From Actinomycetota bacterium (GTDB lineage: Bacteria > Actinomycetota > Thermoleophilia > Gaiellales > Gaiellaceae), in the NCBI GenBank assembly GCA_004366385.1, contig SIRU01000034.1:1-64000 (forward strand): 64,000 bases of DNA, written 5' to 3'. Within the stretch, counting starts at the first letter, position 1. Each line of letters starts with the position of its first letter. Below are positions 31,800 through 56,880 of this stretch, piece by piece. Under the pieces are notes generated by a model that had not been told where the DNA came from, did no database searches, and worked only from the letters and a program-made list of their open reading frames with translations. The position numbers and the translations under genes are program-made.

Positions 31800-32692
31800 C
31801 CGTCGTGGCCACCGATCTCGGGCAGGCCGTCGAGGACGCGGCCGCGCACCTCTACGTCTGGGCGTTGAAGGACATCCCGCAGGACCTGCGCGACGCGCTC
31901 GGCGACGCGGCCGGCCGCGAGACCTCGGTCACGGGCCAGCGTGTCCTCCAGACCATCCTCCGCAACGTGAACGTCGCCGAGGAGGAGAAGAACCTCGTCT
32001 GCCAGGACACGGGGATCGCGGTGTACTACTGCCGCGTCGGCGAGGGTTTTCCCCTGCATCCAGCGCGGATCTACGAGGCGTTGAAGGCAGGGACGGAGCG
32101 CGCGACGGTCGAGCATCCGCTGCGCTCGAACACGGTGCACACGCTCACGCGCGAGAACACCGGCCAGAACGTCGGCTTCCGCGTGCCGATCGTCCATTGG
32201 GACTTCGTCCCGGACTGGGACGGTCTGGACGTGAAGTGCGTGCCGAAGGGCTCGGGCTCCGAGAACATGAGCTTCCTGAAGATGTGCGTCCCCGCCGACG
32301 GCGTCACGGGGATCAAGAAGTTCGTGCTCGAGTCGATCGTGGGCGCCGGCGGGAAGCCGTGCCCGCCGGGAATCGTGGGCGTCGGGATCGGCGGGTCGGC
32401 CGACTACGCGATGCACCTCGCGAAGGAGGCGATCGCGCGGCCCGTGGGGACCCGGAACCCCGACCCGCTCGTGGCCGAGCTCGAGGACGACCTCTTCCAG
32501 CTGCTGAACGAGACCGGAGTCGGGCCGATGGGGCTCGGCGGCGACGTGACCGTGCTCTCGGTGCACGTCGAGCACGCGGACACGCACATGACGCTGAACC
32601 CGGTCGCCGTCAACTACCAGTGCTGGGCCGCGCGGCGCGCCTCCGCGCACGTCGCCGCGGACGGCACGGTCGAGTACGAGAGGGACGCCTGA
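31796..32692 (+). CDS. Class I (Fe-S) fumarate hydratase alpha-type subunit
   Basis: 298 residues. NLVCQDTGIAVYYCRVG near residue 62, KCVPKGSGSENMSFLKM near 145 and GGKPCPPGIVGVGIGGSADY near 185 carry the three Cys that bind the [4Fe-4S] cluster in fumarase/L-tartrate dehydratase alpha subunits; ADTHMTLNPVAVNYQCWAAR lies near the end. The beta subunit is separated from it by a 100-codon ORF rather than adjoining directly. GTG overlaps the flavoprotein stop by four nt. Fumarate/malate is the default substrate; tartrate or sulfolactate-like hydroxy acids cannot be excluded. Confidence 0.88.
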   Translation: MTVVATDLGQAVEDAAAHLYVWALKDIPQDLRDALGDAAGRETSVTGQRVLQTILRNVNVAEEEKNLVCQDTGIAVYYCRVGEGFPLHPARIYEALKAGTERATVEHPLRSNTVHTLTRENTGQNVGFRVPIVHWDFVPDWDGLDVKCVPKGSGSENMSFLKMCVPADGVTGIKKFVLESIVGAGGKPCPPGIVGVGIGGSADYAMHLAKEAIARPVGTRNPDPLVAELEDDLFQLLNETGVGPMGLGGDVTVLSVHVEHADTHMTLNPVAVNYQCWAARRASAHVAADGTVEYERDA

Positions 32693-32994
32693 TGGCCGCG
32701 GCGATTCGTGTGACGAGGCTCGCGCGCGAGTCGAGACCTGTGGGCGTGCCGAGCCGTGTGAGCATGTCGAGGCGCGTGAGTGTGCCGAGCCGTGTGAGCA
32801 TGTCGAGGCCTGTGAGCAAGCCGAGGCGTGCGGACGAGCCGAGGCCTGTGGACGAATTGGCACACAATCGGCGCAGTTCGAGCCGGCTCGCGGACGTATA
32901 CTCGGCCGTGAGGGTGGCGGGAAGGCTCCCCACCCTGGGTGGGGGAATGCGCGCTCGCTCGCTCACGCGCGACGCTCACGGGGAGGCGGTCTGA
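32692..32994 (+). CDS. 100-residue repeat ORF inserted between fumarase alpha and beta genes
   Basis: Its ATG overlaps the alpha stop (TGATG, 32690-32694) and its TGA overlaps the beta ATG (TGATG, 32992-32996), so it is joined to both neighbours. The middle is seven imperfect 18-bp repeats giving six-residue units such as SRVSMS and RPVSKP; the peptide is very basic and has no recognised fold. Both ends start with the same CTGATGGC, as if a roughly 300-bp segment had been inserted at an original alpha-beta TGATG junction. It may be a coupling linker rather than a functional protein. An internal start at GTG 32908 has its own -10. Confidence 0.4.
   Translation: MAAAIRVTRLARESRPVGVPSRVSMSRRVSVPSRVSMSRPVSKPRRADEPRPVDELAHNRRSSSRLADVYSAVRVAGRLPTLGGGMRARSLTRDAHGEAV
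32733..32858 (+). repeat. Seven tandem 18-bp units
   Basis: Units start at 32733, 32751, 32769, 32787, 32805, 32823 and 32841. Units 2 and 4 are identical (GAGCCGTGTGAGCATGTC); the others follow GAGGC-TGTGAGC--GCC with a few changes. Being a multiple of three, copy changes would keep the ORF frame. Confidence 0.75.
32897..32902 (+). promoter_or_regulatory. -10 box TATACT of a 28-codon mini-ORF before fumarase beta
   Basis: TATACT lies five nt before GTG 32908. The mini-ORF 32908-32994 (28 residues, in the frame of the 100-residue ORF) ends in TGATG with the fumarase beta start, so this promoter could load ribosomes for the beta, comA and sulfate genes independently of the alpha gene. Confidence 0.45.
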
Positions 32995-33596
32995 TGGCGG
33001 CGCACGAGGTCACGTTCCCCGTCACCGACCCGGCCGAGATCCTGAAGCTCTGCGCGGGCGACGAGGTCATCGTCCAGGGCCACATCATCGGGATCCGTGA
33101 CCGCACGCAGATCCGGATCTTCGACCAGGGCATCGAGCCGCCGATGGATCTCTCGGGCGCGTTCCTCCTGCACACGGCGCCGAACGTGCGCAAGGTCGGC
33201 ACCGACGCGGAGGGCAGGGGGCAGTACGAGAAGCTCTGCATCGGCACCACCACCTCGGCGCGCATGGTCCGCTTCACCGAGGGGCTCGGCTCGCAGTACG
33301 GCGTGCGCGCGATCTGCGGCAAGGGCGGCTTCCCGGACGAGGCGATCGAGCCGATGCAGCGGCTCGGAATGGTCTACTTCGCGATCGTCGGCGGGGCGGC
33401 CGCGCTCGAGACGACGCAGATCGAGGAGATCGAGGAGGTCGCGTGGGAGGAGCTGATGCCCGAGTGCCTCTGGAGGTTCCGCGTGAAGGACTTCGGCCCG
33501 CTCACCGTCGGCATCGACGCGCACGGCAGCTCGCTGTATCGCGACGTGCAGGCGCAGGCCCACAAGAAGCTGGAGGAAATCTATGCACGGCTCTGA
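32994..33596 (+). CDS. Class I fumarate hydratase beta-type subunit
   Basis: 200 residues. The beta-subunit landmarks are ILKLCAGDEVIVQGHIIGIRD (part), GAFLLHTAPNV, GTTTSARMVRF near 84, ICGKGGFPDEAIEPM near 105 (conserved GKGG) and VGGAAALETTQIEEI near 132. It completes the swivelling domain of two-subunit class I fumarases and tartrate dehydratases. ATG 32994 overlaps the stop of the repeat ORF by one nt. Its last 14 nt overlap comA, so stoichiometric translation is likely. Confidence 0.88.
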   Translation: MAAHEVTFPVTDPAEILKLCAGDEVIVQGHIIGIRDRTQIRIFDQGIEPPMDLSGAFLLHTAPNVRKVGTDAEGRGQYEKLCIGTTTSARMVRFTEGLGSQYGVRAICGKGGFPDEAIEPMQRLGMVYFAIVGGAAALETTQIEEIEEVAWEELMPECLWRFRVKDFGPLTVGIDAHGSSLYRDVQAQAHKKLEEIYARL

Positions 33597-52605: not shown

Positions 52606-52639
52606 TTGACACGATGGCCTTTGTGAGTGAATAATCACT
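52606..52639 (+). promoter_or_regulatory. tetR promoter TTGACA-N18-AATAAT with operator (52626-52639)
   Basis: TTGACA (52606-52611), 18 nt, AATAAT (52630-52635). AGTGA-ATAA-TCACT (52626-52639) is an inverted repeat lying right over the -10, so its own repressor should shut it off. ATG 52646 follows after 10 nt. Confidence 0.7.
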
Positions 52640-52645
52640 TTCTTC

Positions 52646-53212
52646 ATGGCGACGCAAACGAGACAGACGGCGGCCGAGCGCCGCGAGGACGTGCTCGAGG
52701 CGGCGAACGCCGAGTTCGCGCTCCGCGGGCTCCACGGCGCCTCGACGGACGCGATCGCGCGCCGGGCAGGCATCTCGCAGCCATACCTCTTCCGGCTCTT
52801 CGGCTCCAAGAAGGACCTCTACATCGCGGCGCTCGAGCGCTGCTTCGACCGCACGCTCGACGCGTTCCGCGCCGCCGCGTCCGGGACCTCGGGCGAAGAG
52901 GCGCTGCGCGCGATCGGAGACACGTACCGCGACGCCGTCGAGAACGACCGCCAGATGCTCCAGGCTCAGCTCCAGTCCTACGCCGCGTCGGTGGAGGACG
53001 AGGAGATCCGCGAGGCGACCGCGCGCGGGTTCGGCCGGCTCGTCGACTACGTGGAGGCGGTGTCGGGCGCCGACCGGGGGACGGTCGCGAGGTTCTTCGC
53101 GGCCGGAATGCTCATGAACGTGCTCGCGGCCATGGACTACCCGCTCGGCGTCGACCCGCGCTACTCGTGGGTCGCGCGGCTCGCCGAGGGCTGCAGGGAG
53201 GACGCGACATGA
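52646..53212 (+). CDS. TetR-family transcriptional regulator
   Basis: 188 residues. The N-terminal HTH domain shows RREDVLEAANAEFALRGLHG and STDAIARRAGISQPYLFRLFGSKKDLY (given in part: IARRAGISQPYLFRLFGSKK), residues about 12-60. The C-terminal ligand-binding domain is helical, with FDRTLDAFRAAASGTSGEEAL. It probably represses itself and the MFS pump behind it; matching inverted repeats lie at 52626-52639 and 53238-53251. Its TGA overlaps a 27-codon mini-ORF by four nt (ATGA). Confidence 0.92.
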   Translation: MATQTRQTAAERREDVLEAANAEFALRGLHGASTDAIARRAGISQPYLFRLFGSKKDLYIAALERCFDRTLDAFRAAASGTSGEEALRAIGDTYRDAVENDRQMLQAQLQSYAASVEDEEIREATARGFGRLVDYVEAVSGADRGTVARFFAAGMLMNVLAAMDYPLGVDPRYSWVARLAEGCREDAT

Positions 53213-53292
53213 AGGCCCTTCTCTTTTTTCTCCAGCAACTGAGTAATCAGTCACTACATCAGAACCAGTCGGGAACCGGGAGGTCACGATGA
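53209..53292 (+). CDS. 27-residue mini-ORF linking tetR and the MFS gene
   Basis: ATG 53209 overlaps the tetR TGA (ATGA) and its own TGA (53290-53292) overlaps the MFS ATG (ATGA), so ribosomes could pass from tetR to the pump through it. The peptide (MKALLFFLQQLSNQSL...) has a short hydrophobic start and Gln/Ser-rich middle. The second TetR operator lies inside it. ATGAAGGCC occurs at both its start and at the MFS start, which looks like a 9-bp duplication around an inserted 80-bp segment. Whether the peptide itself matters is unknown. Confidence 0.35.
   Translation: MKALLFFLQQLSNQSLHQNQSGTGRSR
53238..53251 (+). promoter_or_regulatory. Second TetR operator ACTGA-GTAA-TCAGT before the MFS gene
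   Basis: A perfect 5-4-5 inverted repeat with the same pattern (A-S-TGA-NTAA-TCA-S-T) as the site over the tetR promoter, located 38 nt before the MFS start. Confidence 0.65.
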
Positions 53293-54710
53293 AGGCCGGC
53301 ACGCGCACGCTCTGGACGTTCGTCATCACGTCGACCGCGCTCTTCATGGTCGTGCTCGACAACCTCGTCGTCTCGACCGCCCTGCCGGTCATCCGCGTCG
53401 ACCTGGGCGCGACGATCGAGGAGCTCGAGTGGACGGTCAACGCGTACACGCTCACGTTCGCCGTCTTCCTGCTCACCGGCGCCGCGCTCGGCGACCGCTT
53501 CGGCCGCAAGCGGATGTTCATGCTCGGGGTCGGGATCTTCACCGCCGCCTCTGCCGCCGCGGCGCTCGCGCCTTCGGCCGACTGGCTGATCGCGGCGCGC
53601 GCGGTGCAGGGCTTCGGCGCCGCGCTCGTGACGCCGCTCACGCTGACCCTCCTCAGCGCCGCGGTCTCGCGCGAGCGGCGCGGCGCCGCGCTCGGCGCCT
53701 GGTCGGGGATCGCGGGCCTCGCCGTCGCGATGGGCCCGCTCGTCGGCGGCGCCGTCGTGGACGGCATCTCCTGGCAGTGGATCTTCTGGCTCAACGTCCC
53801 CGTCGGGCTCGTGCTGCTCCCGCTCGCGACGCAGCTCACCGAGTCGACCGGGCCCGACAAGGCGCTCGACCTGCGCGGGCTCGCGCTCGCGGGCGTCGGG
53901 ATGCTCGGGCTCGTCTGGGGCCTCATCCACGGGAACGGCGACGGCTGGACGAGCCCCGTCATCGTCGGCTCGCTCGCGGTCGGCGCCGCCGGGCTCGCCG
54001 CCTTCGTGTGGTGGGAGCGGCGGGTCGCCGAGCCGATGCTGCCGATGGGCTTCTTCCGCGACCGCGCGTTCGCGGCGGCGAACGGCGCCTCGCTCTTCAT
54101 GTACTTCGGGATGTTCGGCTCGATCTTCCTGCTGACGCAGTTCTTCCAGACCGCGCAGGGCTTCTCGCCGCTCGAGTCCGGGCTGCGCGTGCTCCCATGG
54201 ACGATCATGCCGATGTTCGTGGCTCCGGTCGCGGGCGCGCTGTCCGACCGCATCGGCGGCCGGCCGCTGATGGCGACCGGGCTCGCCCTCCAGGCGATCG
54301 GGCTCGCCTGGATCGCGGGCGTGTCCACCGCCACCGTCGGCTACGTGTCGCTCGTCGGCCCGTTCGTGCTCTCCGGGATCGGGATGGGGCTCTTCTTCGC
54401 GCCGGTCGCGAACGTGATCCTCTCGGCCGTCCGGCCCGAGCAGGAGGGGAAGGCGTCCGGCGCCAACAACGCCATCCGCGAGGTGGGCGGTGTGCTCGGC
54501 GTCGCCGTCCTCGCCTCGATCTTCGCGCGCGTCGGCGGCTACGAGTCGGCCGTGACGTTCACGAACGGCCTCGTGCCCGCGCTCTGGGTGGGCGCCGCGG
54601 TCGTCGGCGCAGGCGCCGTGCTCGCGCTCCTCATCCCGCCGAAGCGGCGTGCCGCCGAGGCACCGGTGACGCAACCCGAGCGGCTCGTGCCGCAGCCCGA
54701 GGCCGCCTGA
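53289..54710 (+). CDS. MFS drug efflux transporter, DHA2/EmrB-QacA type (14 helices)
   Basis: 473 residues. Helix 1 has FMVVLDNLVVSTALPVIRVD (the DHA2 D-x-x-x-V-x-x-A-L-P motif), the A-like loop GDRFGRKRMFMLGVGIF, motif C GIAGLAVAMGPLVGG, and WQWIFWLNVPVGLVLLPLA before helix 6. Fourteen helices can be counted. It should expel a hydrophobic compound in exchange for protons. A GGGAGG Shine-Dalgarno (53278-53283) is present. Control by the adjoining TetR protein through two similar operators is likely. Confidence 0.92.
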   Translation: MKAGTRTLWTFVITSTALFMVVLDNLVVSTALPVIRVDLGATIEELEWTVNAYTLTFAVFLLTGAALGDRFGRKRMFMLGVGIFTAASAAAALAPSADWLIAARAVQGFGAALVTPLTLTLLSAAVSRERRGAALGAWSGIAGLAVAMGPLVGGAVVDGISWQWIFWLNVPVGLVLLPLATQLTESTGPDKALDLRGLALAGVGMLGLVWGLIHGNGDGWTSPVIVGSLAVGAAGLAAFVWWERRVAEPMLPMGFFRDRAFAAANGASLFMYFGMFGSIFLLTQFFQTAQGFSPLESGLRVLPWTIMPMFVAPVAGALSDRIGGRPLMATGLALQAIGLAWIAGVSTATVGYVSLVGPFVLSGIGMGLFFAPVANVILSAVRPEQEGKASGANNAIREVGGVLGVAVLASIFARVGGYESAVTFTNGLVPALWVGAAVVGAGAVLALLIPPKRRAAEAPVTQPERLVPQPEAA

Positions 54711-54828
54711 TGCTCTCCGCCCGAGCCCTTGCGTCGGCGAGCGCGCGCCATCCGTGGCGCACGCTCGCCGCGCGGGGCGCTACGCCGCACGTGGAAGGAG
54801 AGTCGCGGGTGACGTAGGGCGGCGGCGC

Positions 54829-54834
54829 TACGGT
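54829..54834 (+). promoter_or_regulatory. -10 box TACGGT of the GT2 gene (leaderless)
   Basis: TACGGT lies seven nt before ATG 54842. The preceding 130 nt after the MFS gene show nothing else. Confidence 0.5.
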
Positions 54835-54841
54835 GCGCGCC

Positions 54842-55795
54842 ATGCGGCTGCGGGCGCCCAGGACGGTCTCGGTCGTCATTCCCACGCTGAACCGGTGCGA
54901 CAGCCTCCGGCGCACGCTCGAGGGGCTGCGGGAGCAGACGTACGCCCCGTTCGAGGTGATCGTCGTGAACGGGCCCTCGACCGACGGGACGGAGGAGCTG
55001 CTCGCGCTGTACCCGGTCCGTGCCGGCTCGTGCGCTGCGGCGAACGCCGCGGCAGCCCGGAACGAGGGAGTGCGCATCGCAGCCGGCGACCTGCTCCTCT
55101 TCGTCGACGACGACGCGGTCCCGGCGCGCGACTGGGTGGAGCTTCTCGTCGCCGCCTACGACGATCGCCGCGTCATGGGCGCCGGCGGCCCGGTGTTCAA
55201 CGTCGCGCTGCGGGAGGTCGAGTGGCGACTCTGCACCTGCACGCGGGACGGTGTCCCCGACACCGCGAGCGAGCCGCCGGTCGACCGCTACCTGGGCCGC
55301 GGCGCCGACCCGTTCGTCTACCTGGCCGGGTGCAACATGAGCTTCCGGCGCTCGGCTCTCCGGCGCGCCGGGGGGTTCCACGAGACGCTCGCGACGCGGT
55401 ACGAGGACGCGGAGGTCTGCGCGCACATCGTCGACGCGGGCGGCGTCATCGCGTACGTCGAGGGCGCGCTCGTCTACCACGACCCGCGGCCCTCGTCGCT
55501 GCGGGACGAGCGGCAGGCCGTGCGCGACCCGTACTCGGCGACCTTCGGTCGCGCGGTCTTCGCGCTCCAGCAGGCCGGCGAGGCCGCTCTGCCCGCGCTC
55601 GAGGCGTGGCTCGAGGACTGGCGTGTCGAGGCCGGCCTTCAGCTCCGGGCAGGCCTGCTCGACGAGCCCGGGCGGGACGAGTTCCTGCGCCGGGCGGAGC
55701 TCGGCCTCGCAGACGGGATCGCGGCGGCCGCGAGCGGGCGCCCGCGCGTCACGATCGGCCGTGCCGACCGGCGGCGCTTCCTCCCGTTCGAGTAG
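54842..55795 (+). CDS. Glycosyltransferase family 2
   Basis: 317 residues. TVSVVIPTLNRCDSLRRTLE at the N-terminus, VIVVNGPSTDGTEELL (nucleotide site), LLLFVDDDAVPARDWVELL near residue 88 (the DxD motif as DDD), and GCNMSFRRSALRRAGGFHET with YEDAEVCAHIVDAGG near 185 (catalytic E-D) are the GT-A features. No membrane helix. Acceptor unknown; it starts a small cluster with a flippase-like membrane protein, a second GT2 and a GT-C protein. Confidence 0.9.
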   Translation: MRLRAPRTVSVVIPTLNRCDSLRRTLEGLREQTYAPFEVIVVNGPSTDGTEELLALYPVRAGSCAAANAAAARNEGVRIAAGDLLLFVDDDAVPARDWVELLVAAYDDRRVMGAGGPVFNVALREVEWRLCTCTRDGVPDTASEPPVDRYLGRGADPFVYLAGCNMSFRRSALRRAGGFHETLATRYEDAEVCAHIVDAGGVIAYVEGALVYHDPRPSSLRDERQAVRDPYSATFGRAVFALQQAGEAALPALEAWLEDWRVEAGLQLRAGLLDEPGRDEFLRRAELGLADGIAAAASGRPRVTIGRADRRRFLPFE

Positions 55796-55831
55796 TCCCC
55801 GGCGCCCGGGTTGCTCGTACGGGAACACTGG

Positions 55832-55837
55832 TACGGT
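55832..55837 (+). promoter_or_regulatory. -10 box TACGGT driving a 22-residue leaderless mini-ORF
   Basis: TACGGT lies six nt before GTG 55844. A TTGCTC (55811-55816) upstream is a weak -35. Confidence 0.45.
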
Positions 55838-55843
55838 CGCCGC

Positions 55844-55912
55844 GTGGCGCGACCGACGCTCTTCGCTCCGTGCGTCCGCGCAGCGACCTCCGGCAGGAGC
55901 GCGTCGCGGTGA
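55844..55912 (+). CDS. 22-residue leaderless mini-ORF coupled to the LPG-synthase-like gene
   Basis: GTG 55844, six nt after TACGGT, opens a 22-codon frame whose TGA overlaps the next start as GTGA (55909-55912). The main gene has no Shine-Dalgarno or -10 of its own in range, so ribosomes probably reach it by finishing this peptide (VARPTLFAPCVRAATSGRSA..). Same layout as 32908-32994 before fumarase beta. Confidence 0.4.
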   Translation: MARPTLFAPCVRAATSGRSASR

Positions 55913-56880
55913 GCCGCTCCGTGCGCGTCGCCGGGACGCTCGTTCTGACGACCGCCGCGATCGCATACCTCGCGTGGAAGATCGACCTCGCGACGACGCT
56001 CGACGTTCTGCGCGATGCGAGCCTCGCGTGGTTCGCCCTCGCGGCCGCGATCATGGTGCTCACCGTCCCCGTGCTCGCCGCCCGCTGGGGCCGCCTCCTG
56101 CGGGCGCACGCGATCGAGGAGCGGCTGCCGTGGCTCACGCGGGCCTACTTCGTCGCGTACACGGCGGGCCAGCTCCTGCCCACGTCGCTCGGCGGCGACG
56201 CGGTCCGGATCGTGGACACGGCGCGGCGCCACGCCGGGCGGACGGCCGCGATCACCGGCACGGTCGTGCTCGAGCGCGGGCTCGGCGGCGCCGCGACCGT
56301 CCTCCTCGGCGCGATCGCCTTCGTGCTCTCGATCGGCCGCTACGACGTGAGCGCGTACGTCTGGCTCGAGGGCGTCTTCGTGTTCGGGACGATCGTGCTC
56401 GTGTTCGTCTTCTTCGCCCGCTCGGCCCGCCCGCTGCTGCGCCGCACGCGTCCGCTGCTCGAGCGGGTGCGCCTCGCCCGCCCGCTGCGCGCCTTCTACG
56501 AGAGCGTGCACCACTACCGCGGCCGGCCGAGACTGCTCCTCGGCGTGTCCGCCGTGACGCTCGCCGTCCAGACCGTGCGCGTGCTCGCGATCTGGGCGTG
56601 CGCCGAGGCGGTCGGGATCGAGCTGGACGTGCTCGCGTACTACGTCATGGGGCCGCTGCTCTTCCTCGTCATGCTCGTCCCCTTCACGCTGAACGGGATC
56701 GCGGTGCGCGAGGCGTTCTTCGTCAGCTTCCTCGGGAGTCTCGGCGTCGGCGCCGAGCAGGCGTTCGCGGCCGGCTTCCTGTTCTTCCTCGTGACCGTGA
56801 TCCTCGCGCTGCCGGGCGGGGCGATCCTCGCGTGGGAGGGCGTGCGCGGCGGGGCTCGCGCCCGGGTCGAGCATGGCTAG
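55909..56880 (+). CDS. Lysylphosphatidylglycerol synthase TM region/UPF0104-type membrane protein
   Basis: 323 residues, eight or nine helices. AIAYLAWKIDLATTLDVLRDA, WGRLLRAHAIEERLPWLTRA and AYTAGQLLPTSLGGDAVRIVD near residue 85 (the P-x-x-x-G-G-D motif of this family), TGTVVLERGLGGAATVLLG and the C-terminal PFTLNGIAVREAFFVSFLG (N-G-x-x-x-R-E) are clear. These proteins flip or bind lipids, often with glycosyltransferases as here. GTG 55909 overlaps a 22-codon mini-ORF. The 3' end overlaps the next GT2 gene by 8 nt. Confidence 0.88.
   Translation: MSRSVRVAGTLVLTTAAIAYLAWKIDLATTLDVLRDASLAWFALAAAIMVLTVPVLAARWGRLLRAHAIEERLPWLTRAYFVAYTAGQLLPTSLGGDAVRIVDTARRHAGRTAAITGTVVLERGLGGAATVLLGAIAFVLSIGRYDVSAYVWLEGVFVFGTIVLVFVFFARSARPLLRRTRPLLERVRLARPLRAFYESVHHYRGRPRLLLGVSAVTLAVQTVRVLAIWACAEAVGIELDVLAYYVMGPLLFLVMLVPFTLNGIAVREAFFVSFLGSLGVGAEQAFAAGFLFFLVTVILALPGGAILAWEGVRGGARARVEHG

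Follow-up and report, generated by a model that had tools for sequence, protein, structure and literature searches.

Three coupled mini-ORFs of separate origin in a Gaiellaceae contig: a probable leaderless feeder, a frame judged incidental and a conserved T-run/operator pair

Three mini-ORFs at three unrelated sites

Do short reading frames that run directly into a larger gene deliver ribosomes to it, or are they simply left open in GC-rich DNA? The question is raised by the first 64,000 nucleotides (nt) of contig SIRU01000034.1 from an Actinomycetota bacterium of the Gaiellaceae (the window), in which three short open reading frames (mini-ORFs) overlap the start of a gene: one of 22 codons before a gene resembling lysylphosphatidylglycerol (LPG) synthase, one of 28 codons before the gene for the fumarase beta subunit and one of 27 codons between a tetR gene and a major facilitator superfamily (MFS) efflux pump gene. 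A first-pass annotation of this DNA had proposed that all three could feed ribosomes, by a leaderless start followed by termination-reinitiation, to genes that have no ribosome-binding signals of their own. The mini-ORFs themselves are present in the sequence with the lengths and overlaps it described.

We find three sites of three separate origins and no common phenomenon, because a feeder is supported at the LPG-like gene, the fumarase mini-ORF is borne on an insertion and the tetR-MFS site is dominated by a conserved pair of T-run and operator. The similar layout that had suggested one phenomenon does not extend to the spacing of the -10 element, to conservation or to origin, in all of which the sites differ. 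Nor do the downstream genes lack ribosome-binding signals, since a sequence like the Shine-Dalgarno (SD) element precedes the MFS gene, the fumarase beta gene and the LPG-like gene. Leaderless feeding with termination-reinitiation is supported for the LPG-like gene and not supported for fumarase and tetR-MFS. The check that had been suggested, conservation of start, overlap and frame in relatives, gave the same division: they are kept at the LPG site in four genomes and not at fumarase, and at tetR-MFS the long ORF is not kept and its coupled 3' part is kept within the genus. The joint explanation that we favor, at slightly better than even chances, would combine a leaderless feeder at the LPG-like gene, an incidental frame at fumarase and a TetR-gated roadblock terminator at tetR-MFS.

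All features placed by coordinates lie on the forward strand. G000 denotes the window's own genome (a draft of 2.73 Mb in 63 contigs), G006 a congener, other G-numbers the genomes of relatives and L-numbers single loci in them. The GC content is 0.69-0.75. Rfam at gathering thresholds gave zero matches across the window, and the RNA folds of all three leaders are unremarkable.

A probable leaderless feeder before the LPG-synthase-like gene

The 22-codon mini-ORF (55844-55912) begins with GTG six nt after TACGGT (55832-55837), an extended -10 element with TGG ahead of it, and ends in a GTGA overlap at 55909 with the LPG-like gene (55909-56880), which matches PF03706 and TIGR00374 and resembles flippase and LPG-synthase transmembrane proteins. 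The same hexamer (54829-54834) stands seven nt before position 54842, where it marks a direct leaderless start of a glycosyltransferase-like gene. The 5' end of the LPG transcript is predicted from the sequence, and the six-nt distance is within the leaderless spacing peak of this genome: among 1779 called genes, the end of TANNNT lies 6, 7, 8, 9 or 10 nt before the gene start in 161, 114, 94, 55 and 27 cases, against 3 cases at 5 nt and 3.9 per position farther away. Our home-made gene caller gives a bonus to TANNNT at 4-8 nt before a start; as neither the edge between 5 and 6 nt nor the excess at 9-10 nt is made by this bonus, leaderless starts are common in this genome. With the peak at 6-10 nt, the LPG mini-ORF fits leaderless spacing and the fumarase mini-ORF, at 5 nt, does not.

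Comparison with relatives handled 34 LPG loci (30 and four named additions that apparently repeat genomes already included), of which the 32 with an aligned N-terminus were analysed. A mini-ORF was flagged at six of them, in G000, G006 (twice, L069 and L281), G033, G026 and G007 (L065). The last was dropped, because the supposed mini-ORF there is the tail of the preceding gene read in that gene's frame, and four genomes are left. In G000, G006, G033 and G026, in that order, the TANNNT element reads TACGGT, TACCGT, TAGCCT and TAGCCT, lies 6, 6, 7 and 8 nt before the RTG start (ATG or GTG), and leads into a mini-ORF of 22, 19, 21 and 17 codons that ends in an exact RTGA at the gene start in all four, the peptides showing no obvious likeness. 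In G024 the LPG-like gene itself carries the leaderless -10 element, and in most other relatives the upstream DNA reads, by eye, as the end of the preceding gene, adjoining or overlapping the start.

These comparisons support the feeder idea at this site, where promoter, frame and overlap are kept without the peptide in four genomes, and the survey and the phosphoenolpyruvate carboxykinase (PEPCK) orthologues described below agree with it. On conservation and a statistical excess together, 55844-55912 is probably a real leaderless feeder ORF. RNA polymerase would start the transcript at the 5' GTG of the mini-ORF, and 70S ribosomes would initiate at that GTG without an SD, translate the 22 codons, stop at the TGA and reinitiate at the overlapping GTG of the LPG-like gene. 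Selection would hold the start leaderless, the frame open and the overlap in place, with the peptide free to change.

Leaderless mini-ORFs with an exact overlap exceed chance

As a class, RTGA-coupled leaderless mini-ORFs exceed chance. The final survey covered 1.95 Mb of G006 and G000 (two species), with TANNNT allowed at 6-10 nt and 150 nt considered upstream of each gene, and returned 55 upstream RTGs with leaderless spacing, 20 of them in-frame extensions of the gene. Among the remaining 35, 12 end in the exact four-nt RTGA overlap, 16 stop over 10 nt ahead of the gene, 3 end near its start and 4 beyond it. The rate of exact overlap, 12/35, compares with 197/1870 at other upstream RTGs (Fisher p=1.9e-4) and with a distance-matched expectation of 4.1 (p=3e-4); when extensions are included it is 12/55 against 197/2365 (p=0.002). 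The caution that short frames are common in GC-rich DNA is in this way answered for the class, and it stands for the fumarase case. As controls, shifting the frame by one or two bases gave 5/51 and 2/38, placing TANNNT at 14-18 or 20-24 nt gave 2/22 and 2/17, and seven other hexamers gave 0 to 18 percent (5/28 at the top). Earlier settings, with a spacing of 6-9 nt, 200 nt upstream and less DNA, had yielded 9/35 against 191/2497 with extensions and 9/24 against 191/2021 without them.

In the orthologues compared, frame and overlap persist and peptide and length vary. For a gene that we take to encode PEPCK, 28 loci were collected, eight below 40% identity were dropped and three were without the N-terminus; the 17 analysed comprise three with a mini-ORF by motif, six with a direct leaderless start and eight with neither. 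The mini-ORFs have 7 codons in G006, 9 in G003 and 8 in G008 (with a TTG start), and two of the eight, G001 and G009, show by eye 5- and 6-codon ORFs that end in GTGA and TGATG at other spacing. Likewise, a gene presumed to encode a UDP-GlcNAc 2-epimerase-like protein starts directly leaderless at 25/30 loci and carries a 9-codon ATGA-coupled mini-ORF in G006, and a presumably ccmF-like gene has a mini-ORF at 1/26 loci analysed. These three names are provisional readings of the protein sequences.

An alternative is that the frame of the LPG mini-ORF is open by chance, the mRNA having a leader and the gene relying for translation on an SD of its own. AGGAG does stand 9 nt before 55909, an SD-like match that is weaker evidence in GC-rich DNA; such DNA often leaves short frames open, and the four-nt overlap also ends about 10% of the other upstream RTGs. 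We consider this explanation unlikely in view of the threefold excess at leaderless-spaced starts and of the single architecture that recurs, with differing length and peptide, in four genomes. Three observations do count against the feeder. The LPG-like genes have weak SD-like matches, and reinitiation may be one route among several; the LPG site of the window itself does not count as a hit in the survey, its gene start having been called at 55870; and the 16/35 leaderless upstream ORFs noted above stop more than 10 nt short of the gene.

The feeder resembles arrangements known from other bacteria. Leaderless genes led by TANNNT make up about 20 percent in Actinobacteria (PMC3160421). In Mycobacterium tuberculosis, small ORFs with a leaderless RTG and 5-50 codons are coupled by RTGA in 23/220 cases versus 32/1000, and the linkage is conserved without the peptide (Shell et al. 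2015, PMC4633059). With 22 codons, a GTGA overlap and a linkage kept without the peptide in four genomes (17-22 codons), the LPG feeder probably belongs to this kind already described in Mycobacterium. It differs from the mycobacterial cases in its host, a member of the Gaiellaceae, in being read from sequence only, and in that PEPCK orthologues switch between a direct leaderless start and a mini-ORF. Unlike that kind, the fumarase site has neither leaderless spacing nor conserved linkage, and the tetR-MFS site has no leaderless start.

Two further systems are close. At the AUGA overlap of uPPE2 and PPE2 in M. tuberculosis the upstream ORF is needed for the downstream one, mainly by termination-reinitiation; that ORF comes with an SD and a riboswitch, whereas a leaderless start is proposed for the LPG mini-ORF (PMC11260477). 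In E. coli, the 5'-terminal AUG of 5'-uAUG upstream ORFs binds ribosomes and can affect the next gene (Beck et al. 2016, PMC4965119); the genes concerned carry leaders of the conventional type, and an RTGA overlap is not named in the part of the paper available, whereas the LPG site has one. Feeder mini-ORFs would carry the leaderless-coupled kind known from Mycobacterium into a distant lineage of actinobacteria, and the replacement of a direct leaderless start by a mini-ORF among orthologues makes frame and overlap, rather than peptide, testable as the selected trait.

A T-run at a fixed distance from the operator between tetR and the pump gene

The tetR gene (52646-53212; TetR_N, PF00440) follows a promoter TTGACA-18-AATAAT (52606-52635, 11/12 matches), over whose -10 lies the palindromic operator O1, AGTGAATAATCACT (52626-52639); TANNNT stands 5-10 nt before the tetR start in 22/30 orthologues. 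A second copy of the motif, operator O2, AGTAATCAGTCACT (53242-53255), lies between tetR and the MFS efflux pump gene (53289-54710; DHA2/EmrB family, TIGR00711 above cut-off), and GAGTRANNNNTCACT matches twice in the whole 2.73-Mb genome, at O1 and O2 only. Ahead of O2 the coding strand carries a run of six T (53224-53229; T5-T8 in relatives), found at 29/30 tetR loci. The spacer between T-run and O2 (53230-53241, 12 bp) is fixed in length and diverged in sequence: the gap from T-run to operator core is 12 bp at 27/29 loci and 11 bp at 2/29, and the 27 spacers compared are all distinct, with a mean identity of 0.41. Distances between the tetR stop and the T-run are spread from 3 to 18. The T-run keeps its place relative to the operator, and neither the SD nor the gene start nor the tetR stop sets its position. 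In weighing this we relied on the fixed gap, the diverged sequence and the freely varying neighbours rather than on a p-value.

The pair recurs beyond the genus. A genome-wide pattern of TTTTTT, 0-30 nt and then AGTRANNNNTMAC is present in 40/103 genomes of the family and in 66/399 of the class (Thermoleophilia, family members included); with AAAAAA in place of TTTTTT it is present in 1/103 family genomes. Counting one site per place, the gap, which could range from 0 to 30, is 11-14 in 63/67 sites of the class and 12 in 46; it is 11-13 in 40/40 within the family and 11-14 in 23/27 elsewhere, where the others are 0, 15, 17 and 25. A stricter operator pattern matched 3/396 genomes in a sample of the phylum, two of them of this genus and the third elsewhere, with another gap and looking like chance; the rarity of the stricter pattern says little about absence, because it also missed many relatives with a match to the looser one. 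T runs of at least six are rare in the congener (in 1.6 Mb of G006, one strand has 7 and the other 4), and by eye none of these 11 forms a T-run/operator pair besides the one at tetR-MFS. Directly after the T-run, the class matches most often have C or G, then C at positions +3 and +4.

On these sequences, the strongly conserved feature under the tetR-MFS mini-ORF is the T-run/operator pair. The mini-ORF itself (53209-53292, 27 codons) has ATGA at both ends, and a leaderless feeder is not supported here: its start is preceded by GGGAGG, no TANNNT was found 6-10 nt before 53209 on reading the sequence, the MFS gene has an SD of its own (GGGAGG, 53278-53283), an SD-like match being present before 27/27 aligned MFS orthologues, and a 27-codon ORF beginning at the tetR stop occurs at 1/27 loci. 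Only the 3' part, from about 53239, is kept as a frame within the genus. Operator and MFS start are 47, 47, 50, 47, 38, 32, 38 and 38 nt apart in seven of its genomes (G000 among them) and G107, each distance being 2 modulo 3; the coupled frame ends in ATGA in 7/8, and the eighth has TAA two nt before the start. An ATG, GTG or TTG stands in frame just before the operator in all but G000, which has CTG there and in which the frame is open up to tetR, and L036 (G009) agrees with the genus frame by eye. The coupled spacer frame is not kept in the other genera compared. With at least three indels and the frame kept, an outcome of about 1 in 27 by chance, the frame is suggestive, and a coupled frame across the tetR-MFS spacer may matter in this genus. 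The reading of the mini-ORF as wholly accidental was given up, its 3' part being frame-conserved in near relatives.

Several arrangements were seen around this element. Two of the 30 tetR loci are without a downstream pump match: at L050 the T-run is missing too, and at L036 (G009) the T-run is kept and the same tetR, T-run and operator are followed by a different transporter gene, so that the element may move between targets. In two other genera the start codon of the MFS gene lies inside the second TetR operator itself (AGTGATGACTCAC, with the ATG inside and an SD directly before; L045, L046, L048, L049, L052, L053, L058 and L059). At 54710-54817 an ORF joined to the MFS stop by TGATG looks like a decayed second pump gene, and its start, MLSARALASASARHPWRTL, resembles the N-terminus, MKLARVFSTGPLASASARHPWRVVG, of the large membrane transporter after tetR in G009 (L036).

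A possible repressor-gated terminator

What could hold a T-run at one distance from an operator? At tetR-MFS we see the operators O1 and O2, a coding-strand T-run at a fixed distance of 12 bp, a constant polarity, no hairpin and no promoter match. Because the T-run is fixed to the operator, lies on the coding strand upstream only and comes with neither hairpin nor promoter match, and because RNA polymerase I (Pol I) stops 15 bp upstream of a bound protein, we propose a hairpin-less terminator gated by the repressor, in which TetR at O2 would stop polymerase as the U-run fills the 3' end of the hybrid, and which would occur class-wide in several families. We hold this proposal tentatively, at a little less than even chances. 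TetR would repress its own promoter at O1 and also bind O2; on leaving tetR, polymerase would run into TetR at O2 and halt with the RNA ending in the U-run, whose weak hybrid would favor backtracking or release. The tetR mRNA would thus be made while the pump stays off, until a ligand removes TetR and opens both the promoter and read-through into the pump gene.

Three other explanations of the T-run have been weighed. The T-run could be a DNA bend, or A-tract, that aids TetR binding at O2 or looping between O1 and O2 without acting on polymerase. T6-T7 is the classical length of an A-tract, and the distance to the operator is fixed. Since the operator is palindromic, however, a bend would be free to occupy either side and either strand, whereas the T-run is always upstream and on the coding strand (29/29); an A-run is seen within 60 nt after tetR at 0/30 loci and in the genome-wide pattern in the single genome mentioned above, and a T- or A-run near O1 at 1/30 loci only. 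We regard the bend as improbable. A separate MFS promoter within the spacer, of which the T-run is a part, would suit the position of O2 over a possible start region; the window's spacer has no -10/-35 match, relatives on reading show no TANNNT at a fixed place, and such a promoter seems very unlikely. Slightly less likely again is an ordinary intrinsic terminator behind tetR of which the T-run is a part. The run follows a GC-rich stretch, and an adjacent 5-bp hairpin is found at 4/29 loci, but the hairpin is absent at 25/29 (mean z -0.30 in 45-nt windows before the T-run), G000 included, and the distance is fixed to the operator rather than to the tetR stop. The terminator-hairpin reading failed on this comparison.

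The repressor-gated terminator has points against it as well. TetR binding to O2 is deduced from the identity of the motif alone. The sites share descent, so that the p-value of 4e-51 for the gap overstates the evidence, and the T-run/operator pattern is found in 40/103 family genomes and not in all. Pol I termination needs an RNA hairpin too (PMC12366685), which is not seen at tetR-MFS, and road-blocked polymerase in E. coli is released mostly by Mfd, with no T-run named in the parts of the sources at hand (PMC10310618, PMC4132739).

Among known systems, LacI, CcpA, CodY, PurR and other repressors act by roadblock, a repressor in the transcribed region stopping polymerase (PMC4132739, PMC10310618). 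For these, the available text describes no fixed T-run upstream and release mostly by Mfd, whereas tetR-MFS has a T-run. Pol I terminators (Reb1, Nsi1 or TTF1 with a T-rich element; PMC12366685) make polymerase stop 15 bp upstream of the bound protein and share with tetR-MFS a T-rich non-template strand and a fixed distance; in our case the T-run occupies positions about 13-19 bp ahead of the operator core. They are eukaryotic, constitutive and hairpin-needing, whereas the tetR-MFS element is bacterial, presumably ligand-switchable and has no hairpin that we could see. As an upstream RNA hairpin was not found, we say that the element would work like a Pol I terminator, not that it is one. The acuR-acuI-dddL operon likewise has a TetR-family regulator first, leaderless and less translated than the downstream genes (PMC3017554); the portion of that source consulted mentions neither T-run nor second operator, both of which are present at tetR-MFS. 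In the open-licence literature we found no description of a bacterial repressor operator with a positioned T-run, which is weak evidence of novelty. The tetR-MFS T-run/operator pair appears to be a conserved element with no earlier description found, and its mechanism is what we infer above.

If the proposal is right, bacteria would possess a switchable terminator with a repressor on the DNA in place of the RNA hairpin, a compact way of splitting expression within an operon, and a simple test system for the cooperation of roadblock and T-run, a matter of dispute for RNA polymerase I. Feeder mini-ORFs and the T-run/operator element alike are likely to escape annotation pipelines.

An insertion at the fumarase junction

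The fumarase mini-ORF (32908-32994, 28 codons) lies within a 301-nt insertion between the alpha and beta genes (32693-32993) that is found in this genome alone among those compared, and ends in TGATG with the gene for the fumarase/tartrate dehydratase beta subunit (32994-33596; PF05683), which has an SD, GGGGAGG, upstream. TATACT (32897-32902) stands 5 nt before the GTG of the mini-ORF. The 301-nt insertion was not seen at the junction in the 28 relatives compared, and a -10 spacing of 5 nt occurs in 3/1779 genes; both argue against a feeder at this site. Of the 29 loci with alpha adjoining, 19 have the beta start -4 to +5 nt from the alpha stop, and 10, G000 included, have insertions of 52-301 nt, those of the relatives looking by eye unrelated to that of G000. 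A 12-nt direct repeat, CTGATGGCSGCG, gives the junction sequence at both ends of the insertion, at 32689 and 32991. The insertion would have split an ancestral overlap of alpha stop and beta start, with the junction sequence recurring at the insertion's end. Given the repeat at both ends, the TGATG of the mini-ORF is most simply a copy of the inherited junction, and from the sequence we judge this ending incidental.

The insertion might instead have supplied beta and the genes behind it with an active promoter, TATACT, and an 85-nt leader containing an SD. The hexamer and the GGGGAGG before beta fit this reading, which has no comparative support, the insertion being confined to this genome among 29 loci; we think it rather unlikely, though less so than the alternatives weighed at the other two sites.

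The insertion contains 18-nt tandem repeats at 32711-32854. Inserts of 52-158 nt stand at the alpha/beta junction at L006, L008, L014, L016, L019, L021, L025, L027 and L031; some of the relatives' inserts are themselves repeat-bearing, for example with TTGTAACGATCAGTTACAAG or GTAACAGTCTGTTAC, and the junction seems to attract small inserts.

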